This document shows, in pieces, positions 11,685 to 38,606 of a stretch of 64,000 nt of DNA (position 1 is its first letter; each line of letters opens with the position of its first letter). A program made the translations under genes and the position numbers. The notes under the pieces were generated by a model. That model was not told the DNA's origin. It worked only from the letters and a program-made list of their open reading frames with translations, and did no database searches. Source of the DNA: Tsuneonella rigui (GTDB lineage: Bacteria > Pseudomonadota > Alphaproteobacteria > Sphingomonadales > Sphingomonadaceae). The DNA lies in assembly GCF_003958625.1 (NCBI RefSeq), contig NZ_RSEL01000020.1:1-64000 (forward strand), read 5' to 3'.

Positions 11685-11797
11685 GACCCTGAAACCCCTC
11701 GCAAAAATACGGGTGGGCTTTAGCGTAGAACGCAGACGGAGTCACGGTAGCGGGGCGGCGCACGACAAGGCCCCATCGGACAAAGGGTGCCCCTCCG

Positions 11798-11890
11798 GTC
11801 GCCCCGGGCTTGACCCGGGGTGGTGCTTCTCTTTGGTATGGTCGAAGAAGGCAGCCCGACCCCGGATCAAGTCCGGGGTGACGATGGGAA
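11798..11890. repeat. dispersed ~92-bp palindromic element, copy C
   Basis: Third copy, more diverged at its left end (GTCGCCCCGGGCTTGACCC) but with an intact right end (GGATCAAGTCCGGGGTGAC). It lies between the start of the CHAT gene and the 3' end of the serine-hydrolase gene, both on the minus strand, in a 268-base gap that holds nothing else recognisable. Confidence 0.85.
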
Positions 11891-11952
11891 TGGTTGCGAG
11901 GATTCCTCTCTAACGGGGAGCTGGCCTCGACCTTAGGCGAGTCCGCCCCCAA

Positions 11953-19452: not shown

Positions 19453-22032
<2,580 letters not shown>

Positions 22033-22110: not shown

Positions 22111-25100
22111 TTACTTCACCTTGGCGGTGAAGTTCATGAAGAACGTCCGGCCGACGAAATCGTAACCGCTGTAGAGGGGCGCGTTGCCCAGGCGGTTGTA
22201 GCCGTAGCCCGAAATCTGCGGCGGTTCCTTGTCGGTGAAGTTCTTGACGCCGAGGGTCCACGCATAATTGTCAGTCGTCCAGCGGACCGACGCGTTGTGC
22301 GTGAAGTAGTTCGGGGTCTTGAACTGGTAGATCGAGTTGTTCTCGTCTTCACCCAGTGCATCGTAGCTGTTCGTACGACCGACCCAGTTGAGGCCGTAGT
22401 AGAAGCTCACCTCGTCGATCTTGTAGGTCGCGTCGAACGTGCCGGTCCACTTCGGATAGTAGATGTCGCCGTTCCGCTCGGTCACCGGGTTGGTGGAGAA
22501 GGTCTGGCCCGACTGCTCGAAGTACTTGGTCGCGCCGACGTTCAGGCGGAGCGAACCCGGACCGACCGGAACGACGTAGCGTGCGTTCATGTCGATGCCG
22601 CGAACGGTGTTGGTCGAGATGTTGATGTACGAGTTGGTGACGGTCGCGCGGTACGGCGTCGTGCTGCTGGCCGCATCACGGACGACCAGTGCGCACAGTT
22701 CGCCGCCATTGGTGCCCGACTTGAAGGCGACGTCGTTGTAGCAGCTCGAGATGATGTTGCCGCCGCCAAACTGGGCCACGCCGTTCTTCACCTGGATATC
22801 GAAGTAATCGACCGCCAGCTCCATCTTGCCGAGCGAGGCGGGCAGCGGAGGCTGCACGATCGCGCCGACGGTCAGGTTGGTGGAGGTTTCCGCTTCGATC
22901 CCACTGCCGGCACCGCCGGTGCTCAGGACGCGAACGTTCTGGCCGAGCGGGTCACCCGCGCCGCCGAGACCGTAGTTGATCGGAATGCCTTCCGCGGCGC
23001 AGTTCTTGTACACCGTCAGGGTCGGCGACTTGTTGCCGTACTGATAGCACGGATCGACCGTGTTCGAGAGGAACCCCGCGGTCGGCGCCTGGAACTGCTC
23101 CGACAGCGACGGAGCGCGGTACGAAGTGCCGTAAGTCGCACGGAACGACAGCGCCTCGATCGGCGACCACAGGCCACCGACCTTGTAGGTCCAGCCCGAG
23201 CCGTACGAATTGTAGTCCGTATAGCGCGCCGAACCGTTGAGGGTCAGCTCGTGGAAGAACGGACGATCGGCGAGCAGCGGAACTTCGAGCTCGGCGAAGA
23301 CCTCGCGCACGGCGTCCTTGCCCTGCGTGATGCCCGCGGTCGAGTAACCGTAGAGAGCGCCCGTCTGCTGTTCGATCGGCGGCTGGTCGTCGATCTTCTG
23401 GCGGCGATACTCGGCGCCGATCGCAAGGCCGACGTTACCGCCGGGGACCGCGAACAGGCTGCCGCTGAGCGAGCCCGAAACGGTGGTTTCCCAGAACTTG
23501 GTGGTGCCGAACACTTCCGGCGCGACGAAGTTCAGGAAGGCCTGCGGGATGTTCCCGTTGACGACCGCACCGGTCAGGATCGGCGCCGCGACGCAACCGT
23601 TCGAGGTGTCGACGCAATTGAACCCACCGGCGCCATTCGAGACGACGTTCTGGGCCTGCTGCAGGCGCGAGGTAACGAGCTGCTGGAGGCTGTACTTGCC
23701 GTCGCTCTTCGACTGGCCGACGTAGAGGTCGTAGCTCCAGTCGCTCAGGCCCAGGTCGCCGCGGATGCCGCCGCCGACGCGGTAGTAGTCGACCCGCTGG
23801 GCCGACTGGTAGTTGCGGCTGCTGAAGACGCGCACGCCCACTGCCTTGCCGCCCGACTGGTCGGTCGCACCGATGTTCGAGAACTTCAGCTCGTTGGGGA
23901 TCAGCGGGCTACCGAACAGATAGTCGATGGTCGCCTGGAAGAAGGTCGGCTGGCTCGATTCGCGGCGCGTGTACAGCGCATCGAAGTAGAGCTGGGCATT
24001 GCCGAGCGCCTGCAGGTCGAACGTGCCCTGGAGGTAGCCGTTGTAGTTGGTGGTCGGCGACACCAGCGAGCGGTTGAAGAACAGCTGGTTGTAGAGGTCG
24101 CGGTTGCCGAGAGCGGTCGAGCCGCCGCCGTTGACGCCTTCCCAACCCGGGACGCTGCCGCCGGCCGCCGGATTGTAGCGGAAGCGGTTGAAAGTGCCGA
24201 TGGCGGGGTTGCCCGGACCGCCGGCGGCGCCAGCGCGGTTGCTGGTGCCGATGGTGTTGACGGTCACGCCGCTGAGGCCGGTCGCGCCGCTCGGGTAGCA
24301 CTTGGGCTGGCCGGTGCGCGGATCCTTGTAGTCGCCCGAACCGAACGGCTGGCCGGGGGCCGAGGCGATGTATTCGGTCTGGCACAGCAGGTAGTCGTGC
24401 GCGCCGAAGGTCATGATGTTGCGGTCGAGCACTTCGAACGAGCCCGAGATGTTCACTCGGTCGCTGTTGTAGCCCGCGATCACCGCGATGCGCTTGGTGA
24501 TGCCTTCGCCGACTTCGGGGACCGAGACGCCGCCGTCGAGGACGAGGCCGCGGGTCTTCTTGTCGGTGATGATGTTGACGACGCCCGCGATCGCGTCCGA
24601 ACCGTAGATCGACGAAGCGCCGGCCTTGAGGATTTCGATGCGGTCGACGATCGCGCTCGGCAGGACGTTAAGGTCCGCCGACAGCAGCGAGCCGCTGGTG
24701 CCCGAGGGCGCGAGGCGGCGGCCATTGAGCAGGATCAGCGTGCGCGCGGTGCCGAGGCTGCGCAGCGACAGGGTGTTGGCACCCGGGCCGCCATCGGTGA
24801 TGAAGCCGGTGAAGGTGTTGTCGATCTGACGCGCGCCAGCGGTCACGCCGGTGCTCTGCAGCACTTCGTTGGTCGAGTTGAAGCCGGCGATCGTGGTGTC
24901 GTCGCGGGTCACGACCTGCAGCGGCGAGGGCGACGTGAAGTTGCTGCGCTGGATGCGCGAACCGGTAACGACGATCGCGCCGCTATCGTTCGTGGTGGTG
25001 CCATCGGCGTTCTCGACGACCGGATCGCACACGCCGTCGGCGTCGGCATCCGGGCATTCAGCGGCGGCCGCGGCGCTCGTGTCCTGCGCAAACGCAGGCG

Positions 25101-25179
25101 TGCTGAACACGGTCAGCGCGGCCAGCGCCGCGCAAACGGAGGTCGAGCCGCGCAGAGCGGCCTTGTTGATGAATTTCAC
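22111..25179 (-). CDS. TonB-dependent receptor 1 with N-terminal DxDxDG motif
   Basis: A 1022-residue outer-membrane active transporter. Signal peptide MKFINKAALRGSTSVCAALA... ends at AFA-QD. A short acidic segment with the calcium-loop pattern D44-x-D46-x-D48-G-x-x-D52 (DADADGVCD) precedes the TonB-box/plug start 'GAIVVTGSRIQRSN'. The plug shows 'TLILLNGRRLAPSGTSG' and 'ASSIYGSDAIAGVVNIIT', as in sphingomonad/Xanthomonas-type receptors. The barrel includes 'VGRTNSYDALGEDENN' and closes with FFMNFTAKVK, lacking the usual terminal aromatic residue. The substrate is unknown; no siderophore or vitamin gene is adjacent. The start codon is GTG at 25179. It is divergent from receptor 2 and near two sulfotransferases and an oxygenase. 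Confidence 0.93.
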   Translation of the reverse strand: MKFINKAALRGSTSVCAALAALTVFSTPAFAQDTSAAAAAECPDADADGVCDPVVENADGTTTNDSGAIVVTGSRIQRSNFTSPSPLQVVTRDDTTIAGFNSTNEVLQSTGVTAGARQIDNTFTGFITDGGPGANTLSLRSLGTARTLILLNGRRLAPSGTSGSLLSADLNVLPSAIVDRIEILKAGASSIYGSDAIAGVVNIITDKKTRGLVLDGGVSVPEVGEGITKRIAVIAGYNSDRVNISGSFEVLDRNIMTFGAHDYLLCQTEYIASAPGQPFGSGDYKDPRTGQPKCYPSGATGLSGVTVNTIGTSNRAGAAGGPGNPAIGTFNRFRYNPAAGGSVPGWEGVNGGGSTALGNRDLYNQLFFNRSLVSPTTNYNGYLQGTFDLQALGNAQLYFDALYTRRESSQPTFFQATIDYLFGSPLIPNELKFSNIGATDQSGGKAVGVRVFSSRNYQSAQRVDYYRVGGGIRGDLGLSDWSYDLYVGQSKSDGKYSLQQLVTSRLQQAQNVVSNGAGGFNCVDTSNGCVAAPILTGAVVNGNIPQAFLNFVAPEVFGTTKFWETTVSGSLSGSLFAVPGGNVGLAIGAEYRRQKIDDQPPIEQQTGALYGYSTAGITQGKDAVREVFAELEVPLLADRPFFHELTLNGSARYTDYNSYGSGWTYKVGGLWSPIEALSFRATYGTSYRAPSLSEQFQAPTAGFLSNTVDPCYQYGNKSPTLTVYKNCAAEGIPINYGLGGAGDPLGQNVRVLSTGGAGSGIEAETSTNLTVGAIVQPPLPASLGKMELAVDYFDIQVKNGVAQFGGGNIISSCYNDVAFKSGTNGGELCALVVRDAASSTTPYRATVTNSYINISTNTVRGIDMNARYVVPVGPGSLRLNVGATKYFEQSGQTFSTNPVTERNGDIYYPKWTGTFDATYKIDEVSFYYGLNWVGRTNSYDALGEDENNSIYQFKTPNYFTHNASVRWTTDNYAWTLGVKNFTDKEPPQISGYGYNRLGNAPLYSGYDFVGRTFFMNFTAKVK

Positions 25180-25739
25180 GCTTTAGTCCCCAGTACTAAG
25201 GCCGGTGTCTCGCCGGCCAATGTCAGCTCGGTTGGCAATTCCGCGGTGTCCGCAGCAGCCGCCGCGGCGACGAAATGCCAAGTCAAACCTGCGTCGGGAT
25301 ATCGGCTAAGCATCGCCGGGGCAATGCGCGGAACGCCCTGAAACCTGCGCAACGTCGACAGAATGTGTCGCCGGCTAACAATCTCCACCCAACTCGAACC
25401 TAACAAAAGTTCGGCCAAGAAACGCGAAAGAGAGGTAGGATGGCTATGAGGATCGTTAGGATATGAGTCCGCTTGGGCCGCGAACCCCGCGGATTTGCGC
25501 GACTCCCGGTTTCCGGTCGCCGCCCGGTGTGGAAAATTTGTCACAAGCAGTCGCAAAAGTGCAAATTGCGCCCGCTCCGGATGGTCATGGCCGATGGAAA
25601 GGGGCTATCGACCTGCCGTCCGGGGACTGGGCATTCAATCATCGACCAGTTGGGGGATCGCCACGCGCCATGCGTGCGAGCAACCCCGAACGGGATCGAT
25701 TGCATCAGCTCCCCATCGAATTGTTCGGGAGTTGCAAGA
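25180..25739. other. 560-bp divergent intergenic region between two TonB-receptor genes
   Basis: No gene is supported here; the open frames lack ribosome-binding sites and family resemblance. On the minus strand a 6-bp perfect hairpin (GGCCGG-N7-CCGGCC, 25200-25218) sits about 20 bases upstream of the receptor 1 GTG and could affect its translation. Long leaders of this size suggest promoters for both receptors and room for a regulator, but I could not define -35/-10 boxes with confidence. Confidence 0.5.
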
Positions 25740-28700
25740 ATGATCAAGTTTAGGGCTGCGAGGGGGCTCGCGTTTTCGGTTTCGGCAGTTGCACTGGCCG
25801 TCACCACGTCGGCGTTTGCCCAGGATACCGAAAACCGTGCCGGCCAGCCGACGGGTGTCGCGACTAACGACACCGAAGAGCAGCCGGAACAGGCGGACAT
25901 CAGCAACACCGACGCCGAAGGCAACGTCGATGAAGGCGCGATCGTCGTCACCGGCTCGCGCATTCAGCGCACGACCACTTACAGCAGCATCTCGCCGCTC
26001 CAGGTTCTCGAGACCGAGACCCTGCAGGACACCGGCCAGTTCCAGGCCGCGCAGATCCTCCAGCAGTCGGAATCGGCCGCCGGTACGCAGATCGACGCGA
26101 CCTTCTCGGGCTTCGTGCTGAACAACGGCCCGAACTCGCAGACGCTCGACCTTCGCGGCCTGGGCGCGGATCGCACCCTGCTGCTGATCAACGGCCGCCG
26201 CATGGCGCCTGCCGGCGTCGAAGGCGCGCCGACCAGCCCGTCGATCAACCTGCTGCCGAGCTCGCTGATCGCGCGCTACGACCTGCTGCTCGACGGTGCG
26301 TCGTCGGTGTACGGTTCGGACGCGGTCGCCGGTGTGGGCAACATCATCCTGCGCAAGGACATTGACCGGCTTGAGCTGTTCGCGTCGGGCACGCTGCCGA
26401 CCCATGGCGGCGACAGCGATTACACGGCCAGCCTCGCGTGGGGTAAGAAGGGCTCGAACTGGTCGTTCGGTATCGGCGCAGAATACAACCACCGCGGCGA
26501 GATCCTGCTGCAGGACAAGCCGTGGCTCGCCGGCTGCGACCGTCACTACGAAGAAACCAGCACGGGCGAAATCCGCAACGTTGACCTGGGCACCAACGCC
26601 CAGGTGCAGGAAGACAGCGGCGGCACCATCAGCACCAGCGAAGGCGAGTGCAAGATCGGCCTGCTCGCCGGCCGTATTTTCCTCAACGGCACGTACTTCG
26701 GTTCGGTCTACGGCGACACCACCACCTATCCCTCGACCGGCAAGGCGGGCAACTCCGGCGTCCCGGGCTTCAGTGAATCGACGGACGCGTTCGGCCTGCC
26801 GGTCGACCGCAACGGCGACGGCATCCGCGACGTTGATTTCCAGAAGGTCAACCTCAACGGCCGTGAGCAGGACATCACGTTCGTCAGCCCCGAAGACCTG
26901 TACAACGTCATGGCCTATGGCGAGTACACCTTCGACGGCGACATGAACATCACGCCGTTCTTCGAAGCCAACTACAGCCGTTCGGACGTCAAGGTCGCGA
27001 ACAGCGGCACCCCGCAGCTGTTCCCGTTCGTGCGCGGCACCAATCAGTTCAACCCGTGCAACATCAGCCTTTCGGGCGGCGTGCGTATCAACCCGAACGG
27101 TGTTGACTGCCGCGCGGTCAATAACGTGTTCGAAGGCTTTGTCCCTGGCGGCGGTTTCCCGGCTAGCTACGCGCTCGGTACCGGCACCTCGGTTGCGGTG
27201 CAGCCGATCGTCGCGGTCCGCGGCGATCGTAACAACGTCAAAACCCGGCTGGAGCAATACCGCGGTGTGCTTGGTGTGCGCGGCGACCTGCCGTTCATCA
27301 ACATCAGCGGCGACAACGACTGGACCTTCGAGATCGCGGGCGTCTACTCGCACTCGCGCGGTACGTCGGTGCGCAATGGTATCCGCGAGGACAAGCTGGC
27401 GTTCGCGCTCGGCCTCGATCCGACCGGCGACTACACCGGCGACGGCGTGGTCGATAACAACGGCGACGGCATTGCCGACGACTACAACACCAACCAGTCG
27501 GCCCCTCCGTCGATCACCACGCCGTGTAACGCGGCTGGCCTGCGCAACCCTAACCTGGCCGCGCCGGACCTGATCGCGGGTTGCGTCCCGGTGAACCTGT
27601 TCGCCGCGTCGCTGTTCCCGGGCGGCCCGGTCGGCGACTTCGCCAGCCAGGCTGAGCGCGACTACCTGTTCGGTGCCCGCACCTTCCTGACCAAGTACGA
27701 CCAGACCGATATTTCGGCGTTCGTCCAGGGCAGCGTGTTCAACCTCCCCGGCGGTCCGGCGAAGGTCGTGCTCGGCGGCGAATATCGTAAGGACAAGCTC
27801 AACTCGCAGCCCGACTTCGTGGCTTCGAACGGCTTGGCCTACGGGTTCTTCGCCGACCAGGGCGCCCAGGGTTCGAAGGAAATCTGGGAAGCGTTCGGCG
27901 AAATCGACCTGCCGCTGATCACCGGCCAGACGATGGCCCAGGAACTGCGGCTCAACCTGTCGGGCCGTGCGACGCACGACCAGTACTACGGTTGGAACGA
28001 GACCTACTCGGTCAAGCTGGGCTGGCGTCCGGTCGAGCAGCTGCTGCTCAAGATGGCTGCGGGCACCTCGTTCCGTGCGCCGAACCTGCGCGAGAACTTC
28101 CTCGCGGGTCAGTCGGGCTTCAACACGATCATCGATCCGTGCGCGGTGCCGGCCGATGCCTACACCGGTCCGACCGACACCTACGATCCGTCGAAGGACA
28201 AGCGTGCGGGTTACATTATCGCCAACTGCATCCGCGAAGGCCGCGATCCGACCCGCGTCGGCATCCAACCCAAGCTGAACTCGAACAACGCCGCCAGCGC
28301 CGAAATCACCAGCGGTGGCAGCCTGTTGCTCGATCCGGAAACGTCGAAGTCGTTCACCACCGGCTTTGCGTTCCAGGAGCGGTTCGGCCCGGTCAACTTC
28401 AACTTCAACTTCAACTACTACAACATCCGCGTCAGCGGTGCGATCGCCGAGCCGACTGGTCAGTACATCGTGAACCAGTGCTTCAACGATCAGGACGGCG
28501 TCCGCAGCTCGTACTGTGATTTCATCAGCTACGATCAGGACCCGACCGGCCGCCAGCTGGTGGAGAAGGTGTTCGCCGGCTTCATCAACATCAACAAGGA
28601 GACGGTGAAGGGCATCGACCTCAACGCCAACTTCGACACCGATGTGCGGCTGTTCGGCGAGGATGTGGGCCTCGGCCTCAACCTGCGCGCAAACCACCTG

Positions 28701-29243
28701 ATCACGCGCAACACCGAACTGCTCAACGACGACGGCAGCCCGGACCTGAGCAAGGACGCCGGCACCTTCGGCTTCCCGCATTGGACCGGCCGGGCGACCT
28801 TCACCGCGAAGGTCAAGCGTCTGACGGCGACCTGGCAGACCCGCTGGATCGGCAAGGTTTCGGAGAAGGAAGACCAGATCGATCCGTTCGCGGATTACTT
28901 CGGCAACGGCCCGGACGGGAATCCGGTCGACGTCGACGGCGACGGTTCGGCCGACTTCTTCGGCGACACCTGCACCGGCGGCGGTTCGCCGAGCGGTGTG
29001 GTGGCCGGCGACGGCGTGTTCTGCCGCGACATCGGATGGGCGGGTAACTACTTCATCCACTCGGCTTCGCTGCGTTACACCACCGACCGCTGGGAAGCCC
29101 GCGTGGGTGTGAGCAACATCTTCGACAAGGCCCCGCCGCGGGTCGACAGCGACGAAGTGTTCTCGGTTGCCAACACCCCGATCGGCACCGGCTACGACCT
29201 CAACGGTCGCCAGTTCTTCGGCTCGGTGCAGCTGAAGTTCTAA
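25740..29243 (+). CDS. TonB-dependent receptor 2 with four DxDxDG-type loops
   Basis: A 1167-residue outer-membrane receptor, larger than the usual 700-1000. Signal peptide MIKFRAARGLAFSVSAVALA... ends AFA-QD. Plug start 'GAIVVTGSRIQRTTTYSS' is close to that of receptor 1, followed by 'TLLLINGRRMAPAGVEG' and 'ASSVYGSDAVAGVGNIIL'. Four calcium-loop-like elements are seen: D356RNGDGIRD364, D564YTGDGVVD572 immediately continued by D572NNGDGIAD580, and D1064VDGDGSAD1072. They probably lie in extracellular loops, which is inference. The barrel ends FFGSVQLKF with the expected terminal Phe. ATG at 25740 follows GGGAG; the earlier in-frame ATG has no signal peptide. A terminator follows, so the receptor is a separate transcript from the sulfotransferase downstream. 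Confidence 0.93.
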   Translation: MIKFRAARGLAFSVSAVALAVTTSAFAQDTENRAGQPTGVATNDTEEQPEQADISNTDAEGNVDEGAIVVTGSRIQRTTTYSSISPLQVLETETLQDTGQFQAAQILQQSESAAGTQIDATFSGFVLNNGPNSQTLDLRGLGADRTLLLINGRRMAPAGVEGAPTSPSINLLPSSLIARYDLLLDGASSVYGSDAVAGVGNIILRKDIDRLELFASGTLPTHGGDSDYTASLAWGKKGSNWSFGIGAEYNHRGEILLQDKPWLAGCDRHYEETSTGEIRNVDLGTNAQVQEDSGGTISTSEGECKIGLLAGRIFLNGTYFGSVYGDTTTYPSTGKAGNSGVPGFSESTDAFGLPVDRNGDGIRDVDFQKVNLNGREQDITFVSPEDLYNVMAYGEYTFDGDMNITPFFEANYSRSDVKVANSGTPQLFPFVRGTNQFNPCNISLSGGVRINPNGVDCRAVNNVFEGFVPGGGFPASYALGTGTSVAVQPIVAVRGDRNNVKTRLEQYRGVLGVRGDLPFINISGDNDWTFEIAGVYSHSRGTSVRNGIREDKLAFALGLDPTGDYTGDGVVDNNGDGIADDYNTNQSAPPSITTPCNAAGLRNPNLAAPDLIAGCVPVNLFAASLFPGGPVGDFASQAERDYLFGARTFLTKYDQTDISAFVQGSVFNLPGGPAKVVLGGEYRKDKLNSQPDFVASNGLAYGFFADQGAQGSKEIWEAFGEIDLPLITGQTMAQELRLNLSGRATHDQYYGWNETYSVKLGWRPVEQLLLKMAAGTSFRAPNLRENFLAGQSGFNTIIDPCAVPADAYTGPTDTYDPSKDKRAGYIIANCIREGRDPTRVGIQPKLNSNNAASAEITSGGSLLLDPETSKSFTTGFAFQERFGPVNFNFNFNYYNIRVSGAIAEPTGQYIVNQCFNDQDGVRSSYCDFISYDQDPTGRQLVEKVFAGFININKETVKGIDLNANFDTDVRLFGEDVGLGLNLRANHLITRNTELLNDDGSPDLSKDAGTFGFPHWTGRATFTAKVKRLTATWQTRWIGKVSEKEDQIDPFADYFGNGPDGNPVDVDGDGSADFFGDTCTGGGSPSGVVAGDGVFCRDIGWAGNYFIHSASLRYTTDRWEARVGVSNIFDKAPPRVDSDEVFSVANTPIGTGYDLNGRQFFGSVQLKF

Positions 29244-29267
29244 GCCGGTCCACTCGGACCCAAATCG

Positions 29268-29302
29268 AAGGGCCCCCTGCTTCGGCACGGGGCCCTTTTT
29301 TT
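29268..29302 (+). terminator. rho-independent terminator after receptor 2
   Basis: AAGGGCCCC-loop-GGGGCCC followed by seven T, starting about 25 bases after the receptor 2 stop codon. It separates receptor 2 from the sulfotransferase/oxygenase operon whose ATG is 57 bases further on. Confidence 0.92.
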
Positions 29303-29358
29303 GACCCAGATCAGCGGACCGGGTTCCCGCGCGCGTCGCCGAACCCTAGGAACACCAG

Positions 29359-30798
29359 ATGGAGATCGACTGGGCAGAGCTTTCCGAACAGGCGACCCGC
29401 GCCTTGCGCGAAGATCGGCTGGCCGAGGCGGTCGCGCTGTTCGAACGCATCGTCGAGCTGGTGCCCGAGGCGGGTAACAACTGGTTCAACCTCGGCTACG
29501 CCAAGCGCGGTGCGCGCGATTTCGACGGCGCGCTGGCGGCCTACAGCAAGGCGCTGCGGGTAGGCGGGCTAGGTGAGCCGCAGGCCGCGCACGTCAACCG
29601 CGCGATCATCTTCAAGGACGATCTCGGCCAGAACCGCGAGGCGGAACGTGAACTGCGCAAAGCCCTGCGGATCGCACCGAACGATCAGCATGCCTGGTTC
29701 AACCTCGGGCTGCTGTACGAGACCGAAGGCCGCAAGGAAGACGCTCGCGCCGCCCACCAGCGCGCGGTTGCCGCCGATCCGCTGTGCGCGCCGGCGCACG
29801 CGCGGCTGGGGACGCTCGAAGAGGATCCGGAGCGTGCAGTCGCTCTGCTCGTCGCGGCACTCAGGCGCGGCGTATTCCCCGGCGAGGGTGCATCGGCGAT
29901 CGAGTTCTCGCTCGCGAACGCGCTCGACCGGGCGGGCCGCTATGACGAGGCTTTCATGGTCGTCACCAAGGCGAATGCGCGCAAGGCCGCGATGCGGCGA
30001 CCGCAGTTCCGGTACGATCCGGCTGCGCATGCAGCGTTGGTGGATGCGCTGATCGCGGCCTATCCCGATCGCCCTTCAGGGCGGGCCGAGCACGGCGACT
30101 TGCGCCCGATTTTCATGTGCGGGCTGTTCCGATCGGGCTCAACGCTGTGCGAGAACCGGCTGGCGCGGCATCCGAGAATCGCCGCGGGCGGCGAGCTCGA
30201 CGCGATCCCGCTGATGGTGCGCGACGAGCTGCAGCCCTATCCTGCGGCCGCGGTCCAGTTGGGTACAGACAAGCGCGGGGCACTGCGGGAGGCATACCTC
30301 GCCGCCCTCGACCGCGTCGACCGCCGCGCGGCACATGTGTCCGACAAGCGGTCGGACAATTTCCTGCACCTCGGTCTGATCAAGACGCTCTTTCCTGGCG
30401 CACCGATCGTCCACACCGCGCGCGATCTGCTCGATGTCGCCGTATCGACCTACTTCCTCGATTTCGCCGAGCACTTCGGTCACACCACGCGCCTGGAGGA
30501 TATCGCGCATTACCTGGGGCAGTATCGCCGCCTGATGGATCATTGGGCCGGTGTGTTCGGCGACGATATCGTCACCGTGCAATACGAGCAGATGGTCGTC
30601 GATCCGGACGCCGCGCTGGCGCCGGTCTACTCCGCTTGGGGGCTCGATGCCGCAGCGGGGGCGAGCAAGCGCAAGGCGGCACCGGTCCGCACCCCGAGCA
30701 CCTGGGCGGTGCGCGGCAAGCTGCACACTGGCTCCATCGACCGCTGGCGTAATTACGAAAGACACCTCGGGCCGGTCCGCGAGGCGCTTGGATTGTGA
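29359..30798 (+). CDS. TPR-sulfotransferase 1
   Basis: A 479-residue cytosolic-looking protein (no signal peptide) with two parts. Residues 1-210 are TPR repeats (NWFNLGYAKRGARDFDGALA, HAWFNLGLLYETEGRKEDA). Residues 245-479 are a sulfotransferase domain: 5'-phosphosulfate loop of PAPS in 'FMCGLFRSGSTL' (about 252-263), then 'DKRSDNFLHLG' (about 329-339) and the 3'-phosphate element with Arg355 and Ser363 in 'HTARDLLDVAVST'. This arrangement resembles the protein-tyrosine sulfotransferase-like Sulfotransfer_3 group; the TPRs suggest that the acceptor is a peptide or protein. The next gene starts inside its stop codon (GTGA), so the two are translationally coupled. Confidence 0.87.
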   Translation: MEIDWAELSEQATRALREDRLAEAVALFERIVELVPEAGNNWFNLGYAKRGARDFDGALAAYSKALRVGGLGEPQAAHVNRAIIFKDDLGQNREAERELRKALRIAPNDQHAWFNLGLLYETEGRKEDARAAHQRAVAADPLCAPAHARLGTLEEDPERAVALLVAALRRGVFPGEGASAIEFSLANALDRAGRYDEAFMVVTKANARKAAMRRPQFRYDPAAHAALVDALIAAYPDRPSGRAEHGDLRPIFMCGLFRSGSTLCENRLARHPRIAAGGELDAIPLMVRDELQPYPAAAVQLGTDKRGALREAYLAALDRVDRRAAHVSDKRSDNFLHLGLIKTLFPGAPIVHTARDLLDVAVSTYFLDFAEHFGHTTRLEDIAHYLGQYRRLMDHWAGVFGDDIVTVQYEQMVVDPDAALAPVYSAWGLDAAAGASKRKAAPVRTPSTWAVRGKLHTGSIDRWRNYERHLGPVREALGL

Positions 30799-31523
30799 CG
30801 ATCGAGCTTAACCCACGGCCCGATGCCCCACTTCTCGCCGCGCGCTACGCGACCGAGGGCGCGGTTTCGGTGCCCGGCTTTCTCTCGCCCGCCAGCGCGG
30901 AGGAACTCGCGGCCGAGCTGGCGCAGGCCGAGCTGTGGGTCGAAATCTTCCGCGCCGGGGAGAAAGTCTACGAGATGCCGCACGCGCAGTTTCTCGCCTT
31001 GCCCGCTGCGCAAAAGGACGAGTTGCGCCGCAAGATCGAGGATGCCGCGCGCGGCGGCTTGCAGTACCGTTATCGCGCGATCCGGGTGTCGGAGGACGCG
31101 GCCGAGCGAATGACGCGCGGACTGGCGCTCGATCGCTTCGCCGATGCGCTCAACGCGCCCGCCACGATCGACCTGCTCCGGACCATCACCGGATCGGCTT
31201 CACTCGACTTTGCCGATGCGCAAGCCACCGACTATCGGGCGGGCGACTTCCTGACCACGCACGACGATGCGATCGAGGGCAAGAACCGCGTCGCCGCCTA
31301 CGTCTACAGCCTCACCTCGCACTGGCAGGCCGACTGGGGCGGGCTGCTGCTGTTCGAGCGCGGCGCCGAAGTGACCGGATTCGTCCCCGATTACAACGTG
31401 CTGCGCCTGTTCGCCGTGCCGAGCACGCATCACGTCAGCTACGTCGCGCCGTGGGTCGACGCGCGGCGGTTGTCGGTCACCGGTTGGCTGCGCTCGCGCG
31501 TGTCCGGTCAGAGCGGGGCGTAG
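30795..31523 (+). CDS. 2-oxoglutarate/Fe(II) dioxygenase, prolyl-hydroxylase (Tpa1/EGL-9)-like
   Basis: A 242-residue enzyme of the 2OG-Fe(II) oxygenase superfamily, closest by eye to the Tpa1/EGL-9 prolyl-hydroxylase group (COG3751 type). The double-stranded beta-helix core has the iron triad HxD...H as His156, Asp158 and probably His212, and the 2-oxoglutarate-binding Arg225 in 'RRLSVTGW'. Family segments 'RVAAYVYSLTSHW', 'DWGGLLLF' and 'LRLFAVPSTHHVSYV' are in order. Relatives hydroxylate proline in proteins. The GTG start overlaps the TPR-sulfotransferase stop by four bases, and the 3' end overlaps the convergent sulfotransferase 2 gene by 16 bases. A joint role with the sulfotransferases in modifying a peptide or protein is inferred. 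Confidence 0.86.
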   Translation: MTIELNPRPDAPLLAARYATEGAVSVPGFLSPASAEELAAELAQAELWVEIFRAGEKVYEMPHAQFLALPAAQKDELRRKIEDAARGGLQYRYRAIRVSEDAAERMTRGLALDRFADALNAPATIDLLRTITGSASLDFADAQATDYRAGDFLTTHDDAIEGKNRVAAYVYSLTSHWQADWGGLLLFERGAEVTGFVPDYNVLRLFAVPSTHHVSYVAPWVDARRLSVTGWLRSRVSGQSGA

Positions 31524-33493
31524 CCGAACTTCTCGACCCACGGGGCCAGGATCGGGAAGATCGGCTCCATGTGCTTGGCGTACGCTTCCCACCGGCCGCT
31601 CGAGCGGGTGTACACCTTCTCGGTCACCTGCGCGTAGCTTGGGGTGCGGATGTACCCGCGGTCGCGCGCGGTCTTCTGGTGGTTCAGCAGCGCGTCGTCC
31701 CACTCCAGCCCCAGGAAGGCGATCAGCGGCCGCAGCTCGCTCTCGAGGTCCTGCACCATATCTTCGTATCGGACGGTGTGGACGTCGAGCGGAAGGATTT
31801 CGCGCGCGCGCTCCCAATGGCTCATCGCGGCGTCGTAGAACCGGGCGCCGTTCTCCAGCGTCAGGAAGCTCGACATCGCGCTGGTGACGCGGAAATTCTG
31901 CATGAAGCAGCTCAGCACCACGTCGCATGGATGGCGCAGCGCGAACACGAACTTGGCGTCGGGGAATGCGCGGTGCACGTAGGCCGCGCGCAGCGTCATC
32001 AGCGGGAACTTGTCGATCACCAGCTTGCCCGGCGCGACCGCGCCGCCGGCGCGCAATTCCGCGAAATAGGCCGCGCGCATCATCCCGATCCGGTCGCGCG
32101 GCAGCGTCGGCAAGGATTCGAGGTTCTGCGCAATCTCCCGCAGGCGGGTGATCATCTCCTGCTCTTCGCGCACCTCGGTGTCCTCGTGACCCATCAGGAT
32201 CGTGTCGAGCAGGGTGGTGCCTGAACGAAGGAAGCCGCCGAGGAAGGCGGGGGAGGGGCGGCCGTCTGGCGGCGGGCTGCCGGTCCAGCGCGCGAACCAT
32301 TCGGGCGTCAGCTTGGCGGTGTTGGCCTGAATGTTCGCGGTGTACTCGGTCCCGGGATGGCGCTGACCGGCGGGGGTCAGGATCATCTCGTGGTTCATCG
32401 CGCTGAACGACGCGAACGCCTTGTCGGCATCGCCCAGCCGGTCGGCGAGCTGGCCGATCAGCTGCTCGCGCGCATACTCGTCCATCCCTTCGGGATGGTT
32501 CGCCTCGATGATCTCGAGCGCCTGAGCGTTGTTGCCCTGGCGGCGCAGGATCAGCGCCTCGCAATAGCGCAGCTCGGGACCATCCGCACCGTGCGCGCGG
32601 GCTTCGTTCGCCAGAGCCTCGATCTCATCCTCGCGATTCTCGCGTTCGAGCTGGAGGGCGAGGTTGAGCAGCGCGCTCGCATGGCCGGGCGCGATGGTGA
32701 GCGCGGTGCGGTATGCGCGTTCCGCCTCGGGTAGCCGCTCCATGCCGGCGTAACACAGCCCGATCATGACGATGACCTGCGGGTCGCGCTGACCGCCACG
32801 CGCCGCCTCGGACAAGCGTCCGAGCGCCTGTTCGTGAAAGCCGTAGCGAAGGAGGGACTTGCCGAGCTCCAGATTGAGCTCGGCGTCTTGCGGGCTCAGC
32901 GCGAGGGCGCGGTCGAACGCCTCGATCGCCGCGTCGAAATGCTTCGCGATGCTGCGCGCGCGTCCGAGGTTGAGCCACACTTGCGGCTGCTGGGGATCGA
33001 GCTGCGCCGCGCGTTCCAGCACCGCCACGGCTTCGTCCGCGCGGCCCACTTCGGTCAGCGCGTTGCCGTAGTTGTTGAGGATCCGGACATCGCGCGGATG
33101 CTGCGCCGCCAAGGCTGACAGGCGCTCGGCGGCGGCTTCGACGTCTCCGGTCAGCTTGGCCGCCTGCGCGATCACCTGCTGCGCCGCGGCGTCCTGGCCG
33201 AGCGGTGCGCACAGGGCCTCTACCTCGGCCGGCAGCCCCGCGTCGATCGCGGCGCGCGCGGCATTGAGCCGAAGCTGCTTGTCGCCTGGCGCCAGTCCGA
33301 TCGCGCGTTTGAGGGTCGCAAAGCCGGTTTCGGGATCGCCGGACTGCGCCTGGGCGATGCCGAGGAATTGCAGCACTTGCGCATTGGCGGGCTGACTCAA
33401 GGCAGCGCGCTGAGCGAGATCACGCGCACGCGCGAAATCGCCCCCGCGAAATGCGCCGGTAGCTTGCGCCATGATGCTGGCGAGATCGTTCAT
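31508..33493 (-). CDS. TPR-sulfotransferase 2
   Basis: A 661-residue relative of the 29359-30798 protein with a longer repeat region. Residues 1 to about 390 are TPRs (ARDLAQRAALSQPANAQVLQ, VWLNLGRARSIAKHFDAAIE, LNLELGKSLLRYGFHEQALG). The C-terminal sulfotransferase domain has the PAPS loop 'GGFLRSGTTLLDTIL' near residue 420 and the 3'-phosphate element 'FALRHPCDVVLSCFMQNF'. There is no signal peptide. The start ATG at 33493 gives a standard TPR N-terminus; the frame remains open upstream through the next gene but reads as Arg/Ser-rich noise. It is on the opposite strand to sulfotransferase 1 and the oxygenase, meeting the oxygenase tail to tail with a 16-base overlap. It is probably co-transcribed with the 82-residue gene upstream, 49 bases away. 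Confidence 0.87.
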   Translation of the reverse strand: MNDLASIMAQATGAFRGGDFARARDLAQRAALSQPANAQVLQFLGIAQAQSGDPETGFATLKRAIGLAPGDKQLRLNAARAAIDAGLPAEVEALCAPLGQDAAAQQVIAQAAKLTGDVEAAAERLSALAAQHPRDVRILNNYGNALTEVGRADEAVAVLERAAQLDPQQPQVWLNLGRARSIAKHFDAAIEAFDRALALSPQDAELNLELGKSLLRYGFHEQALGRLSEAARGGQRDPQVIVMIGLCYAGMERLPEAERAYRTALTIAPGHASALLNLALQLERENREDEIEALANEARAHGADGPELRYCEALILRRQGNNAQALEIIEANHPEGMDEYAREQLIGQLADRLGDADKAFASFSAMNHEMILTPAGQRHPGTEYTANIQANTAKLTPEWFARWTGSPPPDGRPSPAFLGGFLRSGTTLLDTILMGHEDTEVREEQEMITRLREIAQNLESLPTLPRDRIGMMRAAYFAELRAGGAVAPGKLVIDKFPLMTLRAAYVHRAFPDAKFVFALRHPCDVVLSCFMQNFRVTSAMSSFLTLENGARFYDAAMSHWERAREILPLDVHTVRYEDMVQDLESELRPLIAFLGLEWDDALLNHQKTARDRGYIRTPSYAQVTEKVYTRSSGRWEAYAKHMEPIFPILAPWVEKFGYAPL

Positions 33494-33542
33494 CGGTTTA
33501 TCGGGTGCGATCGTGGACGGCACAAAGGCTGCCGTCGTTCCT

Positions 33543-33791
33543 CTACCGCTCGCGCGGAATGAAGATTTTGTGACGGCTCTGGTTCTCGGCGAAGTCGCGC
33601 TTGTTCGCCTCGGCAATCGCCTCCCACTGGCCGCGCGTGAGGCACGTCTTGGTCGTGAAGCGCGAATTGACCTTCTTTTCCCGCTTGCAGATGACTTCGT
33701 CCGGGTCTTTCGGCGCGGCATCGGCCTGCGCCAGCACCGGCACCGCGATCACCGCGAATCCGAGCATCAAACCTGCAACTGCGATCTTCAT
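33543..33791 (-). CDS. small secreted two-cysteine protein
   Basis: An 82-residue exported protein. A clear signal peptide (MKIAVAGLMLGFAVIAVPVLA, cleavage before QAD) leaves a mature chain of about 61 residues with exactly two cysteines, in 'DEVICKREKK' and 'TKTCLTRGQWE', likely to form a disulfide in the periplasm. The mature part is charged and ends KIFIPRER. Similar small proteins with an 'ICK-E...CLTR-QWE' pattern are, from memory, common in sphingomonads, but their function is unknown. It sits between TPR-sulfotransferase 2 and TonB receptor 3. Start chosen at 33791 because it gives the signal peptide directly. Confidence 0.75.
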   Translation of the reverse strand: MKIAVAGLMLGFAVIAVPVLAQADAAPKDPDEVICKREKKVNSRFTTKTCLTRGQWEAIAEANKRDFAENQSRHKIFIPRER

Positions 33792-33872
33792 TTCATCGGT
33801 CCCTCACACGAGGGCTGAGGATAGCAGGCCGGCGGGCAAAATTGAAGAGCGGCCGCGACTGCCCGGCGCAAC

Positions 33873-33902
33873 GAAAAAGGGCGGAGCCGAAGCCCCGCCC
33901 TT
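33873..33902 (-). terminator. rho-independent terminator of TonB receptor 3
   Basis: On the minus strand GGGCGGGGCTTCGGCTCCGCCC is followed by five T. The stem is strong with a UUCG loop. It lies about 25 bases after the receptor 3 stop codon. Confidence 0.92.
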
Positions 33903-33927
33903 GTTCTTGTTCGCCTTGCGGCCAGGA

Positions 33928-36900
33928 TCAGAGCTTGAGGCCGACCTGCACGTAGTAGCGGCGGCCGATCACGTCGAACAGCGACGGATCGGTGCCCGAC
34001 TGCACGTTCGGGGCGTAGAGCTCCGGCTTGCGGTTGAGCAGGTTGTTGACGCCGACGCGGAAGGTGAACTTGTCCGCCACGGTCGCCTGGATCGCCGTGT
34101 CGACATAGGCCGCGACGTCCGTGCCCTCGAAGGTCTCACCGACGAACTGGACCGAAGCCCGGTTCTTCATGCCGTCGATGACGCGCACGCGGGTATCCCA
34201 CGCGAGGTTTTCGTCGAAGTGCAGGATGGTGTTGAACGTCGCCTTCCAGCGCGGGAAGCTCGTCCCGAGGTTGGCGCCGAAGTACGACACGGTGTCGGCG
34301 TAGTCGATCACGATGCCGGGCAGTTCCTCGACCTTATAGTCGAAGATGTAGTTCGCCATCAGGTTGAACTGCAGTGCCGACTCCGGACCGATGAACTCGG
34401 TCGGCAGGTTGTAGCCGAGCTGAAGGTCGAGACCCGAGGTCTTGATGGTGCCCTGGTTGATCTGCTGGAAGTAGTTGGCGCCGTTACCGCCAAGCGCAAC
34501 CGGCAGGTAGACATAGCTGATGTCCGGGGTACGCGAGTAGATGCTGCTCCCGCCGTCCGAGCAGTACTTGCTGCCGAAGTCCAGGTTGTCGTTGACACCC
34601 AGGTAGCCGTAGCAAGCGGCGATCAGGATGTTCGGATCGGGCGCGAGGATCGCGTCGCTGATGCGGATGTTGTAGTAATCCAGCGAGCCGGTGAAGCCCC
34701 ACTGCTGGAACACCGCACCGACCGTGAAGGTGTCGGCCGATTCCGGTTGCAGGTTCGGGTTGCCGGTGATGCCGAGGTAGACCTGGCTGCCCGGGGTCTG
34801 CGAGTAGGTGCCGATCGCGCCTGCATCGATACCGGTCGCCACGCAGAGTGCGTCGGCCTTTGCGCCGCCACTCGTGCGGAAGTTCGTCCCCTTCGAGCAA
34901 GGATCGAAGTACTGCGGGAAGGAACCGCCGCCCGAGAACAGCTCACCGAAGTTCGGCGCACGCACCGAGTGCTGGTAGCTGCCGCGCAGCCGGAAGTTGT
35001 CGAACGGCTCGACGCTGAGCGTCGCGCCGTAGGCCCACGAGCCGTTGCTCTTACCATCGATACCGTTCTCGATATCGTTGAAGTCGCTGGTCGAGTGACG
35101 TGCCTGCAGGGTCAGTTCGGCCGAGTTGACGAAACCGTCCTTGATGAGCGGGATCGAGAGCTCGCCGAAGTAGTCCATGAAGGTGTTGGTGCCGTTGTCA
35201 TCGGTACCCGTGTTGAAACCGGCGATCGGGCCGTTCAGCGTACCGGCGTCATACTGGTAGGTGAACTTGCGATGCTCGGCGCCGAGCACGACCGAGACCG
35301 GACCGGCCGGCATTTCAAACACGTTGCCCGTGATGTAGCCCTGGAAGATCTCCTGGGTGAACTCGGTAGTCGTGAACGCCGGCTCCGACACGAAGTCGAT
35401 GCAATCCTGCGACAGCGGCTGCACACCGAACGGGTTGAAGCCGCCGGCGCACTGCGAGGCGCCCCCGTCCGCCGCTTCGAGCAGGCCCTGCACCTTCTGC
35501 ACGTTGACGTTGCCGCCAAGGCTGTCGGTGATCGTGGTCTTGCCCTTCGAAGCGTAGGCTTCGTAGTTCCAGCCCGGAGCGAACTCGCCGCGCACGCCGA
35601 GCAGGCCCTGGACCACCTCGTTGGTCAGGGTTTCCTGGCGCAAGCCAGTGTCGAGGAAGCGCTTGGAAACCTGGAAGGCTTCGTTGGCGCCCGATCCGAC
35701 GAATGTCGCGCTGTCTCCGGTACGCGAGTTGAGCAATGCGCGCAGATCAGCCGAAATGAAGGGGTTGGTCACGGGAACAACGAACGCCGATGCACGCCCA
35801 CCCGGCTCGATCAGGTTCGAGGTGGCGTCACGCGGCGACAGCGCAGTCCGGCGCACGGTGGTGCTGACCGGGGTCGGTGCAAGCGCGGTGGCAGACGAGT
35901 ACTTGGTCCAGCCACCTTGAGCGAAGAACTCAAGCGCGTCGCTGACCTTGTAATTGGCGACGCCGAACACCGAATCGCGCTGGTACGGCAGCACCAGCAA
36001 GTTGATGATGTCGAAGTTGTAGGAATAGAAGTCCGGCAGGAAGTTGAGGTTCGGATTGACGCCCGCCGTCGGCTTCAGGTTGGTCACGTCCTCCGGATCG
36101 TTGAATACGCCGGTGCCGAACAGTGTGCCATCGATGTTGAAGCCGATGTTGGAAAGTCCCTGGCTGGGAGCGCCCGCCGCACTCACACCGTACTGGGCGA
36201 AGACTGCATTGATCGCCGCCTGCGTGATCGGGTTGTCGACATTCTCCACGAACCGCCCGGTGGGGAAGGTGCGGGTGGTCGAGGTCGCCTGGGCCGAGAA
36301 CGGCCGCTGCGACTTGATCAGGCCCTGACGTTCCGAGTGCTCGGCGGCGATCGCGATGTTGCCGCGGTCGTCGGCGAAGTTGCCGCCGATCACGCCGCTG
36401 ACCGCCCACTCACGGGCGTCGGCCGCCGCGGTGTTGGCATAGGTCCCGCGCAGGTCGATGCCTTCGAAATCGTGCTTCATGCGGATGTTGACGACACCCG
36501 CGATGGCGTCGGCACCGTAAGTCGCGCCGGCGCCGCCGGTGACGACTTCGATCCGCTCGATCAGGCCCTGCGGAATGGTGTTGAGGTCGACCGTCTGGTC
36601 GGACGCCGACACCATCGGGCGGCGGCCGTCGATCAGCACGAGGTTGCGGTTCGAGCCGAGGCCGCGAAGGTCGACGTTCGACTGGCCACCGTTGCTCGGG
36701 TTGTTCGAGGTGGTGGTGCCGGCCGGGTTGACCTGCGGCAGCGTGTTGAGGAACGTGTCGAGCGTCACGTCGGCGTTCTTGACCGTCTCTTCGCCGGTCA
36801 CGACCGCGATCGGGCTGTTCGCCTCGAGGTTCGGACGGATGATACGCGAACCGGTGACGACGATCGGCGCGCCGGTGTCTTCGACCGGGGTGGTTTCACC

Positions 36901-37002
36901 GGTCGGATCGCTCGCCTCCTGCGCGAACGCAGTCTGCGAAGCCAGGGCTGCGCCGATGACCGCAGTCGCCGAGCCAGCCTTGAGAATCTGTTGGAATTTC
37001 AC
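33928..37002 (-). CDS. TonB-dependent receptor 3
   Basis: A 1024-residue outer-membrane receptor. The start is the GTG at 37002, with AAGGGA upstream, because it gives a proper signal peptide (VKFQQILKAGSATAVIGAAL... AFA-QE); the frame is open further upstream without signal character. The plug begins 'APIVVTGSRIIRPNLEANS' after an acidic linker, then 'NLVLIDGRRPMVSASDQ' and 'GATYGADAIAGVVNIRM'. The barrel shows 'LRGSYQHSVRAPNFGELFSG', a typical RAPN motif, and ends YYVQVGLKL. Similarity of layout to receptors 1 and 2 is clear, but its plug is less similar to them than they are to each other. The substrate is unknown. It is divergent from the thiolase gene and followed by a strong terminator. 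Confidence 0.92.
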   Translation of the reverse strand: MKFQQILKAGSATAVIGAALASQTAFAQEASDPTGETTPVEDTGAPIVVTGSRIIRPNLEANSPIAVVTGEETVKNADVTLDTFLNTLPQVNPAGTTTSNNPSNGGQSNVDLRGLGSNRNLVLIDGRRPMVSASDQTVDLNTIPQGLIERIEVVTGGAGATYGADAIAGVVNIRMKHDFEGIDLRGTYANTAAADAREWAVSGVIGGNFADDRGNIAIAAEHSERQGLIKSQRPFSAQATSTTRTFPTGRFVENVDNPITQAAINAVFAQYGVSAAGAPSQGLSNIGFNIDGTLFGTGVFNDPEDVTNLKPTAGVNPNLNFLPDFYSYNFDIINLLVLPYQRDSVFGVANYKVSDALEFFAQGGWTKYSSATALAPTPVSTTVRRTALSPRDATSNLIEPGGRASAFVVPVTNPFISADLRALLNSRTGDSATFVGSGANEAFQVSKRFLDTGLRQETLTNEVVQGLLGVRGEFAPGWNYEAYASKGKTTITDSLGGNVNVQKVQGLLEAADGGASQCAGGFNPFGVQPLSQDCIDFVSEPAFTTTEFTQEIFQGYITGNVFEMPAGPVSVVLGAEHRKFTYQYDAGTLNGPIAGFNTGTDDNGTNTFMDYFGELSIPLIKDGFVNSAELTLQARHSTSDFNDIENGIDGKSNGSWAYGATLSVEPFDNFRLRGSYQHSVRAPNFGELFSGGGSFPQYFDPCSKGTNFRTSGGAKADALCVATGIDAGAIGTYSQTPGSQVYLGITGNPNLQPESADTFTVGAVFQQWGFTGSLDYYNIRISDAILAPDPNILIAACYGYLGVNDNLDFGSKYCSDGGSSIYSRTPDISYVYLPVALGGNGANYFQQINQGTIKTSGLDLQLGYNLPTEFIGPESALQFNLMANYIFDYKVEELPGIVIDYADTVSYFGANLGTSFPRWKATFNTILHFDENLAWDTRVRVIDGMKNRASVQFVGETFEGTDVAAYVDTAIQATVADKFTFRVGVNNLLNRKPELYAPNVQSGTDPSLFDVIGRRYYVQVGLKL

Positions 37003-37433: not shown

Positions 37434-38606
37434 GTGAGCACCGCCTATATCGTCGATGCCGTTCGAACCGCCGGCGGCCGCCGCGGCGGGAAGCTTGCCG
37501 GGGTTCATCCGGTCGACCTCGCCGCCGCATCGCTCGATGCGCTGGTCTCGCGCACCGGCATCGATCCGGCGCGCGTCGACGACGTGGTCATGGGCTGCGT
37601 CACCCAGGCCGGTGAACAGTCGATGCAGGTCGGCCGCATGGCGGTTCTCGCATCGCAGACGCTGCCGCAATCGACCCCGGCGGTGACGATCGACCGGCAG
37701 TGCGGCTCTTCGCAGCAGGCGATCCAATTCGCCGCGCAGGCGGTGATGAGCGGCACGCAGGACGCGGTAATCGCTGCGGGGGTCGAGAGCATGAGCAGGG
37801 TGCCGATGGGCACCAACCTGACCTTCCACCTGAAAGAGGGGCTGGGTCACTATAAGTCGCCAGGGTTGGAAGCGAAGTACCCCGGCATCATGTGGTCGCA
37901 GTTCGAGGGCGCCGAGATGCTGTGCGACAAGCACGGTTTCACCAAAGAAGACCTCGACCGGTTCGGCTACGAGAGCCAGCGGAAGGCGATCGCGGCGACC
38001 GAAAGCGGCGCGTTCGAGCGCGAGATCGTGCCGATCACCATCCAGACTCCCGAGGGCGAGGCGCAGCACACGGTCGACGAGGGCATCCGCTTCGACGCGA
38101 CGCCCGAGAGCATCGCCGGGGTGAAGCTGCTGAAGGAAGGCGGCCGGCTGACCGCTGCCACCTCCAGCCAGATTTGCGATGGATCGAGCGCCGCGCTGAT
38201 CGTGTCCGAAACTGCGCTCAAGGAGCTCGGCCTGACGCCGCGCGCGCGCATCCACACGCTGACGGTGACCGCGGGCGACCCGGTGATCATGCTCGAAGAA
38301 CCGTTGTTCGCGACCGACAAGGCGCTCGCCCGCGCCGGCCTCAAGATCGACGATATCGACCTTTACGAGGTCAACGAGGCGTTCGCCTCGGTGCCGCTCG
38401 CCTGGCTCAAGCACACCGGTGCCGATCCGAGCCGGCTCAACGTCAACGGCGGCGCGATTGCGCTCGGTCACCCGCTCGGCGCCAGCGGCACCAAGCTGAT
38501 GGCGACCCTGCTCAACGCGCTCCAGGCGCGCGGCAAGAAGTACGGCCTGCAGACGATGTGCGAAGGCGGCGGCGTCGCCAACGTGACCATTATCGAAGCG
38601 GTCTGA
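37434..38606 (+). CDS. acetyl-CoA acetyltransferase (thiolase)
   Basis: A 390-residue thiolase, the normal length of the family. Acyl-acceptor Cys90 lies in 'DRQCGSSQQAIQ', the His of the active site in 'NVNGGAIALGHPLGASG', and the second Cys in 'MCEGGGVANV'. It either condenses two acyl-CoAs or cleaves 3-ketoacyl-CoA, in the cytosol. Start GTG at 37434 gives the family N-terminus (VSTAYIVDAVRTAGG) with a GGAAGGGA ribosome-binding site. The next gene, a type II 3-hydroxyacyl-CoA dehydrogenase, starts 25 bases after its stop, so the two enzymes of consecutive beta-oxidation steps form an operon ended by the terminator at 39475. Confidence 0.93.
   Translation: MSTAYIVDAVRTAGGRRGGKLAGVHPVDLAAASLDALVSRTGIDPARVDDVVMGCVTQAGEQSMQVGRMAVLASQTLPQSTPAVTIDRQCGSSQQAIQFAAQAVMSGTQDAVIAAGVESMSRVPMGTNLTFHLKEGLGHYKSPGLEAKYPGIMWSQFEGAEMLCDKHGFTKEDLDRFGYESQRKAIAATESGAFEREIVPITIQTPEGEAQHTVDEGIRFDATPESIAGVKLLKEGGRLTAATSSQICDGSSAALIVSETALKELGLTPRARIHTLTVTAGDPVIMLEEPLFATDKALARAGLKIDDIDLYEVNEAFASVPLAWLKHTGADPSRLNVNGGAIALGHPLGASGTKLMATLLNALQARGKKYGLQTMCEGGGVANVTIIEAV

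Follow-up and report, generated by a model that had tools for sequence, protein, structure and literature searches.

TonB-dependent receptor genes paired with TPR-armed sulfotransferases in Tsuneonella rigui and other Proteobacteria: a possible modification of surface receptors before export

This work concerns an island of the sphingomonad Tsuneonella rigui, at positions 22111-37002 of a 64,000-nucleotide stretch of contig NZ_RSEL01000020.1 (the window), in which three genes for TonB-dependent receptors (TBDRs) enclose two sulfotransferases with tetratricopeptide repeat (TPR) arms, ST1 and ST2, and an Fe(II)/2-oxoglutarate (2OG) oxygenase. We found that genes for TPR-armed sulfotransferases (TPR-STs) lie beside TBDR genes beyond chance in many genomes, which opens the possibility that surface receptors are sulfated by the bacteria that make them. 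The genes of the island and its two anchors are as follows:

19453-22032, plus strand: ClpB (name assigned by eye), left anchor of a conserved position
22111-25179, minus strand: TBDR1, 1022 residues, from gene calling, with Plug and TonB barrel domains by Pfam
25740-29243, plus strand: TBDR2, 1167 residues, from gene calling, with Plug and TonB barrel domains by Pfam
29359-30798, plus strand: ST1, 479 residues, with TPRs and Sulfotransfer_3 (PF13469, 110 bits) by Pfam and without a signal-like start
30795-31523, plus strand: Fe(II)/2OG oxygenase, 242 residues, with 2OG-FeII_Oxy_4 (PF13661, 71 bits) and PF13640 by Pfam
31508-33493, minus strand: ST2, 661 residues, with TPRs and Sulfotransfer_3 (PF13469, 119 bits) by Pfam
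33543-33791, minus strand: small secreted protein, 82 residues, with a signal-like start and two Cys
33928-37002, minus strand: TBDR3, 1024 residues, from gene calling, with Plug and TonB barrel domains by Pfam
37434-38606, plus strand: acetyl-CoA acetyltransferase (ACAT; name assigned by eye), right anchor

From ClpB to ACAT the genes follow one another in the listed order. TBDR2, ST1 and the oxygenase share one strand, with TBDR2 upstream and a 4-base overlap between the ST1 and oxygenase genes, and TBDR3, the small protein and ST2 share the opposite strand. The initial annotation, made from the DNA letters alone, had described three full-length receptors of 1022, 1167 and 1024 residues around two TPR-armed sulfotransferases and a 2OG oxygenase; gene calling reproduced the receptor lengths, and the Pfam domains bore out the identities. 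NCBIfam models gave partial matches to the receptors, far under their cut-offs. The source genome holds four Sulfotransfer_3 matches, five PF13640 matches and one APS kinase.

Both sulfotransferases display, in addition to PF13469, what we take to be the motifs that bind 3'-phosphoadenosine-5'-phosphosulfate (PAPS). The C-terminal domain of ST2 matches tyrosylprotein sulfotransferases of the PDB (tick 8w5z, E 2e-16; human TPST1/2, about 1e-12), with the 5' PAPS loop in common and a Glu aligned with the GEE motif of TPST. The alignment gives ST1 the same motifs, an RSGST 5' loop and the aligned Glu, and its PDB matches include no TPST chain at E 1e-6. Moreover, a modelled sulfotransferase of the sister family described below has TPST as its best fold match and an OGT-like TPR arm. 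The kinship with protein-tyrosine sulfotransferases that had been proposed from family knowledge was thus supported, by sequence for ST2 and by fold for the sister enzyme. In genome G005 the ST2 orthologue directly adjoins the TBDR3 orthologue (TBDR3 kin 71-72% identical), and ST2 and its G005 and G003 kin are all TBDR-adjacent in the strict sulfotransferase tree (3/3).

Sulfotransfer_3 was sought in 78 genomes, that of T. rigui included, and 75 gave a match, TPR-armed or not. The survey of the order comprised 40 loci, one per genome and mostly the best-scoring TPR-type place, which is not a random draw. Sulfotransferases were labelled with a strict domain-only profile, by which 39 of the 40 loci have a called sulfotransferase; a profile spanning the TPR arm had picked up TPR proteins with a PF13759 oxygenase domain, which were rejected as sulfotransferases, Pfam confirming the oxygenase for four of them. 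Gene calls were sparse in several loci (L145, L165, L173 and L197 among them), and their genes are absent from the counts; the 20 control regions were taken at hand-picked positions, of which L165 and L173 gave almost no genes. A TBDR gene directly adjoins 34 of the 40 TPR-ST genes (33 of the 39 loci with a called sulfotransferase), compared with 8/325 non-receptor genes in the control regions (Fisher p 4e-34, which overstates independence since the loci are related); for the other genes of the same sulfotransferase loci the figure is 50/456. On the strict tree of 79 sulfotransferases, adjacency needs 6 changes (3 of them forced by well-supported branches) versus 25.2 in shuffles, and the TBDR-adjacent share reaches 29/30 in one lineage and 13/17 in another. 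No neighbour family is common to all sulfotransferase loci of the survey. Ten loci were taken from other classes, and five of the nine with a called sulfotransferase have it beside a TBDR. The initial annotation had asked whether its gene set recurs in varied contexts: the receptor-sulfotransferase pair does so, in other orders and classes as well, which makes the finding larger than first stated.

These counts bear on the idea that the neighbourhood arose by chance at a variable locus. TBDRs are common, and one was called in 4 of the 20 control regions, but chance is contradicted for the pair both by the contrast with the controls and by the receptor-then-sulfotransferase order in 69 of 80 sister loci; we consider it very improbable. 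Chance placement may apply to the small two-Cys protein, for which tblastn gave no match at E 1e-4 in 40 loci of relatives and six further loci of its own genome, and which has weak paralogues elsewhere in that genome (contig C5). Its gene and two Cys stand as first described, but its membership in the set does not, as it is unconserved in relatives; for this reason it was rejected as a peptide substrate of the enzymes, and it is probably not a functional part of the island.

The sister family consists of the best 80 of at least 593 stretches in named genomes, scanned with a receptor of the large lineage, and its hosts range from Sphingomonadales to SAR86, SAR92, Alteromonas, Colwellia, Idiomarina and Microbulbifer. 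By strict calls, a sulfotransferase lies directly downstream of the receptor on the same strand in 69 of these 80 loci, an order that spans Alpha- and Gammaproteobacteria. Tblastn adds a sulfotransferase at L227, L242 and L271, and at L209 a 459-residue gene occupies the position and fails the strict label. L244-L246 stop at or shortly past the receptor, and L260 holds a fragment. No adjacent sulfotransferase was found at L270, L274 and L278, whose genomes hold 17, 8 and 10 Sulfotransfer_3 matches, weak ones counted; at L274 the 4.5 kb downstream of the Alteromonas receptor (8700-13233) have neither a called gene nor a sulfotransferase match, and the close kin L268 and L280 have a sulfotransferase there. 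The reverse search, with the receptor in the 78 genomes at E 1e-60, gave 22 receptors in 18 genomes (tallied by eye), 20 of them with a Sulfotransfer_3 place within 1.6 kb among the matches listed and one a tandem copy at a distance of 4.6 kb. Among further families encoded within four genes of the 69 pairs, BCCT (betaine/carnitine/choline) transporters and MarR-type regulators (24/69), identified by Pfam on one member each, are the most frequent. Because 46 of the 69 pairs have a BCCT gene within that distance, the sister receptor probably takes up a quaternary amine, and receptor, sulfotransferase, BCCT and MarR genes form a probable quaternary-amine uptake operon. An acidic Tyr tail of BCCT, seen at one locus, was rejected as a general feature, [DE]Y occurring near the aligned start in 4/51 (rough scan).

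The sister receptors also offer a candidate acceptor site. In the alignment of 102 of them (23 + 79, the fragment L260 omitted), both Tyr of a D-Y-[ST]-x-Y motif are invariant and the first Asp is present in 97/102. The L213 receptor was modelled (pLDDT 90) with 22 strands, which are joined on one side by short turns (2-7 residues) and on the opposite side by longer loops (5-65 residues). The long-loop side is presumed extracellular; there the motif starts L4, a loop of 37 residues, and is close to a conserved pair of Cys. The strand count is that of this relative, the window receptors being assigned a Plug and a barrel by Pfam. According to a review, sulfated Tyr lie among acidic residues and a basic residue at position -1 abolishes sulfation (PMC6272617). 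The looser pattern [DE]Y.{1,2}Y was found in 28/28 receptors of group A, 10/11 of group B, 1/19 of group C (TBDR3 kin) and 4/7 of group D (TBDR1/2 kin), as well as in 1/6 other paired and 3/19 unpaired receptors. Groups A-D are explicit lists, whereas paired and unpaired mean with or without a gene of at least 380 residues within two genes under earlier, broader sulfotransferase labels; the receptor tree was also built with those labels, which took in the TPR-PF13759 oxygenases. All four motif carriers of group D, TBDR1 included, have an RYTDYxSYG-type stretch, and a search of the receptor groups of the window for acidic Tyr that are conserved yielded weak candidates only. Acidic Tyr per receptor differ in the short class (3.18 when sulfotransferase-adjacent, n=38, versus 1.0 with none, n=8) and are alike in the long class (1.56, n=9, versus 1.5, n=4). 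A Tyr target may be argued only for the sister family, in which ligand binding is a live alternative.

In relatives, ClpB and ACAT recur beside TBDR and modifier genes, and the interval or its flank holds receptors with varying modifier sets: an oxygenase with a TPR-2OG oxygenase (TPR and PF13759), a methyltransferase and a secreted protein of about 175 residues, c5; sulfotransferases without an oxygenase (G003, G006); a sulfotransferase and an oxygenase in G005, the latter found by tblastn and not by gene calling; and sulfotransferase, oxygenase and sulfotransferase in the window. TBDR1 kin occur in G003, G007 and G010, at loci that also carry ClpB and/or ACAT. In G009 the receptor, a 66% identical kin of TBDR2, is followed by oxygenase, TPR-2OG oxygenase and methyltransferase in place of ST1 and the oxygenase, and 13/16 TPR-2OG genes in the loci read have a TBDR at most two genes away. 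Of the local evidence, this exchange of modifiers around similar receptors hints most strongly that the enzymes act on the receptors or on something they share.

Alternatively, the enzymes might modify a protein that works with the receptor, secreted or at the surface, of which c5 would be an example. C5 lies among the receptors in ten relatives with the ClpB-ACAT neighbourhood (L044, L045, L065-L069, L072, L074, L155), and animal TPSTs act on many secreted proteins. However, gene calling gave no c5 for G005, G006 or the window, all of which carry sulfotransferases, and the commonest third families of the sister pairs include no small secreted protein, so that we hold this explanation to be unlikely. 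In nine loci (L044, L045, L065-L069, L072, L074) TBDRs, c5, the TPR-PF13759 oxygenase and an OGFOD1-like oxygenase form a cassette, with an S-adenosylmethionine-dependent methyltransferase in all but L045. Sel1-repeat proteins with a PF13640 oxygenase lie beside the same receptor kinds (L046:8099-9010, by clustering; L068:12925-13875, by Pfam) and may be another candidate repeat-armed modifier.

From the genomic pairing, the fold and the motif, we infer that the receptors could be modified before export. In this scheme the OGT-like TPR arm would hold the unfolded receptor precursor, and the enzyme would move sulfate from PAPS onto a side-chain hydroxyl of a future surface loop prior to Sec export; in the sister family, the best sampled, the acceptor would probably be a Tyr of D-Y-[ST]-x-Y in loop L4. 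For the window, the scheme would make TBDR3 the substrate of ST2 and TBDR2 that of ST1; the OGFOD1-like oxygenase, whose gene overlaps that of ST1, would hydroxylate the receptor that ST1 serves. The negative charge gained might tune ligand capture, perhaps of cationic quaternary amines in the sister family, or guard the receptor from phages or bacteriocins that bind it. The scheme is built on observed gene content and its recurrence, on domain similarity and on the loop motif; substrate, order of events and purpose are what it would add to them. That TBDRs are widely encoded beside cytosolic protein-modifying enzymes acting on them, the island being one such site, is a tentative reading to which we would give a little less than an even chance. 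The interpretation in the first annotation, which had named two candidate substrates, a peptide and the receptors, is supported in part. Of the two, the receptors are the better fit, because the pairs follow the sulfotransferase and receptor lineages, because one family retains the Tyr motif in a surface loop and because no peptide precursor or dedicated exporter was apparent by eye in the gene calls of the island; the chemistry itself is a prediction, and BCCT keeps a small-molecule role in play.

Several observations weigh against receptor modification. The arrangement varies in the survey of the order, with 16 pairs having the receptor upstream, 11 the sulfotransferase upstream and 7 the two on opposite strands. 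In other alphaproteobacterial orders a TBDR adjoins only 4/26 TPR-ST genes (4/20 loci), which suggests that many TPR-STs have other substrates. ST1 has no close paired kin, nor clear kin of any kind, in the strict tree of 79 sulfotransferases, whose bootstrap had not settled. The Tyr motif does not carry over to the window: it is sparse in group C and in the other paired receptors and present in part of group D, and TBDR2 and TBDR3 lack it; L270 and L278 keep it without an adjacent sulfotransferase, and groups A and B have common ancestry. Aromatic cages are known at quaternary-amine binding sites, and the L4 Tyr may form such a cage, kept for ligand binding with or without sulfation; a sulfotyrosine there would likewise suit a ligand that is cationic.

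The BCCT genes beside so many sister pairs likewise lower the odds of receptor modification and of the wider proposal made below, and they raise those of enzymes that tailor a small molecule, glycan or peptide handled by the receptor, for example by sulfating an imported choline-like quaternary amine. Indeed, receptor genes frequently neighbour ligand-handling genes, and small-molecule sulfotransferase domains also match the modelled sister enzyme (16.4 and 15.9). Conversely, TPST as best fold match and the OGT-like arm point to protein substrates, no BCCT or comparable set was noticed by eye in the gene calls of the window island, and the sulfotransferase loci of the order lack a common neighbour family. 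We regard this explanation as rather unlikely.

The oxygenase may stand apart from the receptors. OGFOD1 (E 2e-4) and TPA1 (E 0.008) are its top PDB matches, and the H-x-D...H iron site and 2OG-binding Arg of their type are present (H156, H212 and R225 invariant and D158 at >=90% in 26 aligned sequences), so that the Tpa1-like identity first assigned to it holds. OGFOD1 and TPA1 are two-domain proteins that hydroxylate a ribosomal protein; at 242 residues the island enzyme has one domain. The full trio of receptor, sulfotransferase and oxygenase was seen in three genomes only among the loci read (window, G005, G056). Of 50 oxygenase genes, 29 are found away from any TBDR, so that the oxygenase also has an independent distribution, which the first annotation had listed among the findings that would refute it. 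In the oxygenase tree the enzymes of the window and G005 fall among stand-alone relatives, which also counts against the scheme. The island oxygenase may be a hydroxylase captured at this site and directed at a target of its own, perhaps in the ribosome, the sulfotransferases serving the receptors as proposed; its closest PDB kin and its grouping with stand-alone enzymes, several of them beside an RlmN-like gene, agree with this. The 4-base overlap with ST1, the direct adjacency of 13 of 48 called oxygenases to a TPR-2OG enzyme or a sulfotransferase, and the 9 changes of TBDR context needed on the oxygenase tree, 8 of them forced, speak against capture, which we judge possible, if on the unlikely side. 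Since 12 of those 13 adjoin a TPR-2OG oxygenase (one of the 12 also a sulfotransferase), the oxygenase was dropped as a general maker of the acceptor hydroxyl.

At six loci (L041, L042, L047, L049, L051, L053) stand-alone kin of the oxygenase have an RlmN-like gene at most two genes away, which, with the OGFOD1 kinship, hints at a bacterial ribosomal-protein hydroxylase. In the small genome G065, Sulfotransfer_3 matches occur in runs of five, four and three (contigs C56, C91, C71, C94), and C94 carries three consecutive oxygenase copies.

A wider proposal, possible but doubtful, is that Sphingomonadales, Hyphomonadaceae, SAR86, SAR92, Alteromonas, Colwellia and other lineages make sulfotyrosine in TBDR surface loops by means of a dedicated adjacent TPR-ST, that some sphingomonads have swapped or combined it with hydroxylases and a methyltransferase, and that receptor tailoring is a general, exchangeable layer of the outer membrane. 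If true, protein sulfation would be common in Gram-negative outer membranes, beyond one documented Xanthomonas case, and the many sulfotransferases of these genomes would gain a role; the L4 motif would be a defined, testable site on nutrient receptors, a kind used elsewhere as phage and bacteriocin entry points. Should the Tyr reading prove wrong, there is still a conserved operon of receptor, TPR-ST and often BCCT, an unexplained uptake system across Alpha- and Gammaproteobacteria. No published description of the pairing was found in the open literature (titles and abstract starts; preprints and most subscription papers lay outside the scope), a silence that is weak evidence of novelty.

Known systems offer several comparisons. 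In PMC6637879, RaxX of Xanthomonas is given as the only documented bacterial Tyr sulfation as of 2019, and RaxST as a bacterial tyrosylprotein sulfotransferase acting before export, as proposed here; RaxST modifies a small peptide exported by RaxAB, whereas the neighbour of the island sulfotransferases is a receptor. Neither a raxX-like peptide nor a RaxAB exporter was noticed by eye in the ClpB-ACAT gene calls, no Rax profile search having been made. With TPST1/TPST2 the similarity lies in the catalytic domain, by the sequence of ST2 and the fold of the sister model, and in the 5' PAPS loop and aligned Glu, but the island enzymes, of predicted activity, are TPR-armed, bacterial, without a signal-like start and encoded beside TBDRs. 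The oxygenase resembles OGFOD1/TPA1 in its 2OG-Fe(II) domain with H-x-D...H and Arg, and differs in having that single domain. Finally, like OGT, the TPR-STs fuse a TPR superhelix to a protein-modifying domain, which in their case is a sulfotransferase and not a glycosyltransferase.

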